Under the pieces are notes generated by a model. The model was given only the letters and a program-made list of their open reading frames with translations, did no database searches and was not told the DNA's origin. A stretch of 33,244 nt of DNA from Verrucomicrobiales bacterium (GTDB lineage: Bacteria > Verrucomicrobiota > Verrucomicrobiia > Verrucomicrobiales > DEV007), in contig PAAG01000035.1 in assembly GCA_002698785.1 (NCBI GenBank), positions 1 to 33,244 on the forward strand. Reading direction: 5' to 3'. Position 1 is the first letter of the stretch. Every line of letters begins with the position of its first letter. Position numbers and translations under genes: made by a program. Shown piece by piece: positions 17,795 to 19,026 of the stretch.

Positions 17795-18169
17795 ATGAAC
17801 TTCGCTCACCGATACCCGCTCAACGTTCCAGGGAAGTTCTACGTAACTGGCGAATGCACCGACTGCGACCTTTGCCGAGAGTGTGCACCGGACAACATCC
17901 AGAGAGACGACCGCCACGGCTATTCGTATTTCTACAAACAGCCTCAGACGGAGGAAGAAATGGCAGCCGTCCTGCTCGGTGTTGAAGGATGCCCAACCGG
18001 AGCAGTGAGGCAGGACGGCGACACATATGACTGGGAGAAAGAGCCGATCATCAACTGGAACTCCTTGCTCAATGCCGAGTTCGACCTCGGCCCACTAATC
18101 TCTCAGGCCGATTCCATCGAGAGGTATTCCGGGACAGATAGCCATGCGCCGGAGAAAAAGTCTCCGTAG
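17795..18169 (+). CDS. single-cluster ferredoxin, copy 1
   Basis: The 124-residue protein has C21-x2-C24-x2-C27 plus C66 in EGCPTGAV, the layout of a single [3Fe-4S] or [4Fe-4S] cluster ferredoxin. An additional C30 (CREC) sits where relatives usually have Thr or Tyr, so a fifth cysteine is available near the cluster. The flanking YPLNVPGKFYV and APDNIQRDD are shared with the second copy at 18604-19026. The C-terminal 40 residues are variable. It is cytosolic and probably an electron carrier; no partner oxidoreductase is adjacent. Confidence 0.85.
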   Translation: MNFAHRYPLNVPGKFYVTGECTDCDLCRECAPDNIQRDDRHGYSYFYKQPQTEEEMAAVLLGVEGCPTGAVRQDGDTYDWEKEPIINWNSLLNAEFDLGPLISQADSIERYSGTDSHAPEKKSP

Positions 18170-18250: not shown

Positions 18251-18359
18251 AATTGTCTTGTCCCCCGCCCCTCGATTCGATACAATACAGTCGAAATCTC
18301 CGCCATGACGAGCCGGAGATACTGGTTCAGATCACGGCGGAGCGACAGGTGAGACAATT
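18251..18359. other. nested inverted repeats, possible structured RNA or decayed element
   Basis: Outer arms AATTGTCT (18251-18258) and AGACAATT (18352-18359) enclose inner arms CTCCGCC (18298-18304) and GGCGGAG (18336-18342). An alternative inner hairpin, ATCTCCG (18296-18302) with CGGAGAT (18314-18320), competes with that stem. All three pairings are perfect. The region lies between the first ferredoxin stop and the MITE-like element, on no known gene. Confidence 0.35.
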
Positions 18360-18369
18360 CTCACGATAA

Positions 18370-18581
18370 ATACCTCTTGGCAAAATTATTTGCCGAAATC
18401 ACGAGGTTGAAATGGGGGCTAACGAGGCGCTCAGGAGTGAGTTGGGTTTCCCCAACGAGCGAATGAGGAACGAAGTTAGGCTCGATTTCAGCCCGAGACT
18501 TACAAAACTATTCTGAGCAAAGCGAAGCAATCTCCACTGATAACATAAATTGTTTCGGCAAAGAATTTTGCCAAGCGGTAT
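18370..18581. mobile_element. MITE-like element between the two ferredoxin genes
   Basis: Terminal inverted repeats at 18370-18398 and 18553-18581 match at 27 of 29 positions; the inner 23 bases match at 22. Each terminal repeat itself holds a 6-base palindrome (GGCAAA...TTTGCC). A second, internal inverted pair (18405-18423 with 18475-18493) forms 17 of 19 pairs including two G-U. Inside that lie CGCTC/GAGCG (18428-18432, 18457-18461) and GTTGGG/CCCAAC (18441-18446, 18451-18456). The element is 212 bases, encodes no protein, and the ends show TA at the borders. It ends 22 bases before the second ferredoxin ATG, so it also forms that gene's leader. No second copy or transposase is in the window. 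Confidence 0.7.
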
Positions 18582-18603
18582 AAAACTCCACCCCCCGAAG
18601 AAA

Positions 18604-19026
18604 ATGAACTTCACCCACCGATACCCACTCAACGCACCGGGGAAGTTTTACATTGATGATCAATGCACAGACTGCGACCTCTGCCGAGAGTATGCGCCGG
18701 ACAACATCCGGAGAGACGACCGCTACGGTCACTACTACATCTCCAAACAGCCCGAGACGCGGCAGGAAGTCGCCGCCGTAAAGCAGGGCATCCACGCCTG
18801 CCCCATGCACGCCGTCCAGCACGATGGCGATCGGCATGACTGGGATTGTGAGCCCATCATCGACTGGAACGCAGCCCTCCACCGTTTCGGCCACGAAGCC
18901 GACTTCGATCTCGATGTGCCGGTCATACCCTACGAGCAAACCCTCGAGCAGGAGCGCCCGGGATGCGAAGACACACAGCCCGAAAGCAAACACTACTGGT
19001 GGCAAAAGCTGTTTTCTCATTCGTAG
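18604..19026 (+). CDS. single-cluster ferredoxin, copy 2
   Basis: The 140-residue paralogue starts MNFTHRYPLNAPGKFYI. The cluster ligands C21, C24, C27 and C66 (HACPMHAV) are kept, but position 30, Cys in the first copy, is Tyr (CREYAPDN). The CP-x-G-A loop of copy 1 is CPMHA here, with His in place of Gly. The C-terminus is longer and more acidic. A longer frame open from 18550 falls within the MITE-like end and is not used. The two copies, roughly 60% alike by eye over the core, may serve different partners or redox potentials. Confidence 0.85.
   Translation: MNFTHRYPLNAPGKFYIDDQCTDCDLCREYAPDNIRRDDRYGHYYISKQPETRQEVAAVKQGIHACPMHAVQHDGDRHDWDCEPIIDWNAALHRFGHEADFDLDVPVIPYEQTLEQERPGCEDTQPESKHYWWQKLFSHS

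Follow-up and report, generated by a model that had tools for sequence, protein, structure and literature searches.

The RUP element of Streptococcus pneumoniae is 107 bp long and has been proposed to be mobilised by IS630-Spn1, and the Correia/NEMIS and ERIC elements are TA-ended palindromes that give folding transcripts able to affect mRNA, as set out in the relevant parts of PMC2229807. In Coxiella, QMITE1 and QMITE2 are MITEs that yield small RNAs, with variable ends and a conserved core in the case of QMITE1 (part of PMC5896051).

The element described here lies in a window, the whole stretch of DNA that was analysed, of 33,244 nucleotides (contig PAAG01000035.1, assembly GCA_002698785.1) from a Verrucomicrobiales bacterium. 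Like RUP, it belongs to a family of short, non-autonomous elements, with TA at both termini in part of the copies, and its ends resemble those of an IS630 insertion sequence; unlike RUP, for which the pertinent part of PMC2229807 reports no further signature of structure or function, it has a core that occurs phylum-wide behind many ends. With Correia/NEMIS and ERIC it shares the palindromic build, TA-ended in part of the copies, but here the core is common to different ends and its orientation to genes is even, whereas the corresponding part of the same source mentions no core across different ends (PMC2229807). The Coxiella QMITEs belong to one species, and the part of PMC5896051 that treats them contains no covariation test and no core across IS types, in contrast to the phylum-wide core reported here. 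Literature searches brought up no description of one structured core common to bacterial MITEs with different ends. We consider it about 80% probable that the window element is a TA-inserting MITE moved in trans by an IS630 transposase, and that its interior is a strand-specific fold of about 95 nt common to elements with other ends.

Anatomy of the element and the ferredoxin locus

An inverted-repeat search placed the terminal arms at 18370-18398 (+) and 18553-18581 (-); they are 29 nt long, complementary at 27/29 positions (93%) and separated by 154 nt, exactly as an earlier note on this DNA had described them. The family model (CM R2) gave a full-length match at 18369-18582 (+), one base beyond these ends on each side. 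The element stands between two ferredoxin genes (17795-18169 and 18604-19026, both +), which both match Fer4_13 in Pfam and are 57% identical, and 22 bases lie between its right end at 18581 and the ATG of the second ferredoxin at 18604, in agreement with the distance given there.

The segment 18360-18600 folds with -85.7 kcal/mol, compared to -56.6 +/- 4.65 kcal/mol for shuffles (z = -6.26; 0/200 shuffles as good). The nested inner stem and two smaller stems that had been noted before are predicted and covary among the copies. They correspond to an inner helix (18400-18423 with 18475-18497, +; columns 32-55 and 107-129 of alignment A5), in which 11/22 pairs change on both sides in this alignment of the copies from the same genome, to an apical hairpin (18437-18460, +; columns 69-92), and to a small 3' hairpin AGCAAAGCGAAGCA (18516-18529, +; columns 149-162), of which the window copy forms 2/3 consensus pairs. 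What had appeared as an inner 19-base stem is part of a structured core of about 95 nt at 18401-18497 (+), matched by the 95-position model R3 with 75.2 bits (E 2e-17); the single further match of R3 in the window at E <=1 has 13.6 bits (E 0.3). The sense strand of the core in this copy is the + strand of the window.

Rfam 15 (4227 models) contained no match to the window element, and in a search of 17 loci at E <=1 the only match overlapping an element, by 8 nt in L139, was the chance-level RF01946 (16 bits at a cut-off of 70). In the same locus (L139:1941-1986), Acido-Lenti-1 RNA scored 36.4 bits, against a gathering score of 37, at a distance of about 220 nt beyond a core element. A consensus scan for sigma-70-like promoters found none inside the window element and a promoter-like site upstream of it, TTGTCC-17-TACAAT at 18258-18286 (+), which is a consensus match only (1 found, 0.4 expected).

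Copies and insertion sites

The genome of origin (7.0 Mb in 60 contigs, completeness 95.9, contamination 5.0) contains eight copies with the ends of the window element, here called type A (TAGACC..TTGCCAAAA). They lie on both strands, terminal inverted repeats were found in all eight, and the other seven are 72-82% identical to the window copy; the single-copy state that the earlier note had named as evidence against mobility is thereby contradicted. These seven have genes of other families, or genes without Pfam match, as neighbours, and there is no evidence for the suggested involvement of the element in the ferredoxin duplication. Beyond this genome, a sequence-only model of type A ends (22 ends) matched in 12/33 genomes of the genus at E <=0.05, and a scan of genome contigs for such ends yielded five stretches, all of them in MAGs of Verrucomicrobiales or Akkermansiaceae.

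TA is present at both ends of 4/8 type A copies (L003, L005, L007, L008), whereas the window copy is flanked by AA and TA. When the flanks of L008 and of L023, a copy in a congener, are joined at one TA, each gives an uninterrupted gene start whose product would have a hydrophobic N-terminus (MMYKLLRLAAAAV; MGGTTMSIKHFILTGIGF), which points to single-TA empty sites reconstructed from the flanks, no real empty site having been seen. For the window copy no orthologous empty site was found, the closest ferredoxin relative (G029, 55% identical) being not syntenic; it lies in another neighbourhood, with no element among the scored matches on its contig.

Several further observations concern insertion sites. 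At L008:1352-3046 (+), a type A element lies close to where a PQQ-repeat protein gene is presumed to start; there it contributes 213 nt and a 564-aa frame is open through the element; Rickettsia palindromic elements likewise insert in coding frames that are left open. In L022, L091, L120, L121, L132, L146 and L169, a co-directional upstream gene ends about 3 nt or less from the element end, and a stop codon whose TA serves as the insertion site could be restored as TAG by an element starting with TA+G. In an Akkermansiaceae MAG (L115:7454-8000), type A-like ends surround a different palindromic interior (CTCTGCGTCTCTGCG-like). Several contig ends of G000 (L329, L339, L352, L368, L375, L377) also have element end motifs no more than about 200 nt away, so the assembly may be interrupted by elements and their number underestimated.

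Transposase partners

A transposase with matching ends, named in the earlier note as support for a mobile element, is present in a congener: in G032, a pair of type A ends delimits an IS630-type element of 1066 bp, whose 258-aa ORF has DDE_3 (E 3.5e-31) and HTH_33 (winged-helix) domains. Stops in frame ahead of this ORF, near the transposase start, indicate that the G032 copy is probably damaged, and no intact IS630 was found in the genome of the window, only a sub-cutoff relic. This relic, about 340 bp long and with degenerate ends, lies at L102:1471-1810. A second partner is found in G004, where a 1149-bp element with type B ends (TAGACCGTTTCTCAAAAG) carries a 328-aa ORF 68% identical to the G032 transposase, so that two end types, A and B, have a transposase partner. 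Type A ends near contig ends were further observed in G015, G010 and G019, several of them beside transposase fragments in G015 and G019.

The remaining types gave no such partner: for D and E every end pair in the retrieved loci is MITE-sized, and for C to I none was convincing in the examined loci or in the stretches from C50, from contig ends and from G068. In L272, type G ends spanning 1113 bp were considered as a partner element and turned out to be two neighbouring short copies. The type H ends that span 840 bp in L134 are weak, with 5 and 3 mismatches.

The interior of the element is not a decayed transposase. We infer that an IS630-family (Tc1/mariner-type DDE) transposase recognises the ends of about 30 bp and moves, or moved, the window element in trans. 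The eight same-ended copies, the IS630-type element of a congener, whose ends match, and the putative TA empty sites of two copies argue for the mobile element that had been one of the two readings proposed for this locus.

Many end types around one core

Reading of 46 elements revealed a conserved interior between ends that differ, with L134 and L137 as the most divergent. Besides types A and B, we distinguished type C (CTAG-TGTGGTGTT), type D (CTAG-GAGACTGTTGAAAAA), type E (CTAG-GGTGTGTGGACAAATT), type F (TAGCCCGTCCAGCAGA) and type G (TAGGGTGTGTTCGAAAAT). In the genome of the window, the R3 core model has 31 matches at E <=0.01; with two partial matches omitted and end types assigned by eye, the remaining 29 cores fall into seven types (A 8, B 4, C 4, G 6, H 3, I 2 and a D variant 2). 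Six of these (A, B, the D variant, G, H and I) occur on a single contig of 780 kb, C50, and contamination is therefore no explanation of the mixture, unless C50 is chimeric.

The end types need not all be unrelated. When 56 ends were clustered at 68% identity, 14 clusters resulted, several of which are variants of one type, and the resemblance of A to B and of E to G suggests that end types may be divergent. In 55/56 elements the offset of the core from the left end is 31-34 nt, and element length is nearly constant; this constant offset suggests change in place, not repeated capture of the core by decayed insertion sequences.

Insertion with target duplication is documented for type E by a natural experiment in G068. 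There, a type C element is interrupted by a type E element (variant GGCAGTGTGG) that has CTAG on either side, and type C copies without this interruption (L155/L161) have one CTAG at the corresponding site, which shows type E insertion with CTAG duplication. The target sites of the types differ, CTAG for type E and, from the joined flanks, probably TA for type A. A count in G068 gave 119 type E ends and 0 for the reversed control pattern, and the type E insertions look like a recent burst. Nested and neighbouring insertions in G068 are found in L292, L295 and L296. Outside the order of the window genome, L181, L183, L187, L189 and L193 are elements of 269-272 nt with apparently two cores in inverted orientation; both cores match the model in L181, L183, L189 and L193, and L187 was read by eye.

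The core is widely distributed. With the CM of the eight copies it was detected in at least 19/58 genomes and at least 7/18 genera of the family, and with the R3 core model in at least 26/387 genomes and at least 14/198 genera of the phylum, in more than one class; these counts are lower bounds, as the best 40 (family) and the best 10 (phylum) candidates per genome were scored. The phylum-wide cores have still other ends, discernible in 14/28 loci by automatic end search. Searches of viral contigs (a single exact and narrow pattern), plasmids (two queries) and phages (one query) yielded no core.

Covariation and strand bias of the core

Among the eight copies of the window genome, 26/67 pairs changed on both sides, compared to 11.4 in shuffles (0/500 reach 26), and the consensus fold reached -94.05 kcal/mol on the window + strand versus -64.48 kcal/mol on the other strand. 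On the pairs common to the structures of both strands, G-U and A-C pairs occurred in 13 and 3 distinct column types, respectively (p 0.021), with p 0.0075 to 0.064 on other pair sets of the same copies; in the four type A copies of related species taken alone, the wobble bias is not clear. From the 46 elements, excluding L154 (which has an insertion), L153, L134 and L137, dereplication at 85% gave 27 cores, which show two-sided changes in 26/28 pairs and a more stable sense strand in 27/27.

A larger alignment, with rows from 88 chosen loci, comprises 92 cores. It contains 875 compensatory cells, compared to 268 +/- 15 in shuffles (0/500), and has a covariation score of 0.882, compared to 0.244 (0/500); that all 28 of its 28 pairs show some two-sided change proves little, as shuffles give 25.6 and 3/500 reach this value. 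In the unpaired columns, 14/39 are conserved to >=90%, while the letters of the helices vary. Columns of mostly Watson-Crick pairs contain 158 G-U and 25 A-C, and the sense strand folds better than the antisense strand in 90/92 cores; for the 29 cores that belong neither to the family nor to the training set, the corresponding figures are 54 and 6, and 28/29. Alignment A10 was fitted to the model, so that its pairing leans towards the model structure; the wobble asymmetry and the loop conservation are less exposed to this bias. Together, covariation, loop conservation and the wobble and sense-fold biases argue against a bare palindrome and for selection on a single folded strand, be it RNA or DNA. 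Beside the apical hairpin, a GA-NN-GA / GA-YN-GA pattern, matched by a regular expression in 50/92 cores, may form tandem G-A pairs.

The folded strand might be single-stranded DNA formed in replication or transposition instead of RNA. G-T is a better tolerated mismatch in DNA too, and an even orientation to genes requires no transcription, but IS630-type DDE transposition uses double-stranded DNA, and a cruciform extrudes both strands and would leave no strand bias; we consider this reading rather unlikely.

It is more doubtful still that the elements form an ordinary MITE family, in which a functionless palindrome from one ancestor is kept symmetric by arm-to-arm template switching and the ends are divergent versions of one. 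Such correction would make the arms change together, as they do at one pair with UA in 4 and GC in 4, and the nearly constant length and core offset and the likeness of some end types are compatible with it. Arm correction is strand-blind, yet G-U outnumbers A-C by 158 to 25 and the sense strand folds better in nearly every core; the conserved unpaired columns and the different target sites, CTAG and TA, likewise speak against this account.

Orientation to neighbouring genes

Neighbouring genes were called by ORF and codon score, with approximate borders in 11 loci (L170 to L198). Among 50 chosen copies, the downstream gene is co-directional with the core in 23, opposed in 25 and without call in 2, and the upstream gene is co-directional in 27 and opposed in 22. 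For the eight type A copies of the window genome, the downstream gene is co-directional in 6, opposed in 1 and without call in 1, and a co-directional start lies within 18 nt of L003, L004 and L006; for the copies of this type in related species, it is opposed in 5/5. The even orientation makes a general role as mRNA leader unlikely, and leaves the strand preference unexplained if the core RNA stems from host transcripts. A clustering of copies about 20 nt before start codons is not claimed: several of the original gaps measured just about 40-90 bp, and closeness to start codons is then expected. Five flanking ORFs in a common reading-frame phase with the element end were judged to be possibly due to chance.

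That the element was recruited after insertion as a cis-acting leader of the second ferredoxin is very improbable, since, for all that its core sense strand is the ferredoxin strand, its end lies 21-22 nt before the ATG with a promoter-like site upstream, and the type A set of its genome is 6:1 co-directional with three close starts, the element is multi-copy and beside other genes, the 50 copies are balanced downstream, every type A copy from a related species is opposed, and the G029 ferredoxin has no element among the scored matches.

Discussion

The earlier note had offered a mobile element and a structured cis-regulatory RNA as alternatives. Of the latter, the structure has stood, as selection on one folded strand, and a general leader role has not, given the even orientation over 50 copies. 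With the evidence for mobility set beside that for a selected fold, the two readings need not exclude each other.

In our preferred reading, a TA-inserting MITE with a strand-specific fold, the natural unit would be the conserved core, which may have acquired different transposon ends in a fixed layout, 31-34 nt from the left end. The core would most likely be a transcribed structured RNA serving the element itself; such an RNA could bind a host factor, be processed from host transcripts, or raise the mobility or the tolerance of the element. The distribution of ends suggests that one hitch-hiker core rides several kinds of transposon.

The CORE-SINEs of animals, which are RNA retroposons, have a conserved central domain and different tails that match different autonomous partners. 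The present elements resemble them in combining a conserved core with several ends, seven types in one genome, and differ from these eukaryotic retroposons in having inverted-repeat ends of the DNA-transposon type, which, together with the CTAG duplication of type E, argue for DNA transposition and not for an RNA-mediated process. We suggest, tentatively and as something short of an even chance, that CORE-SINEs have in them a prokaryotic counterpart: a mobile module of structured RNA, ancient and present across the phylum, that swaps its ends, exploits successive transposases and has a fold that works for the parasite.

A MITE is usually regarded as a shell without content, recognised by its ends. 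In the present elements it is the ends that vary, and evolution has kept the interior throughout a phylum, for the most part on one strand. If this is true, the unit of selection would be the core, and such MITEs could be classified by their core instead of their ends. The core would then represent a structured RNA-like family of 95 nt without Rfam match, which can be tested for binding partners, processing and an effect on transposition. The findings suggest that one and the same entity can be both structured RNA and mobile element.
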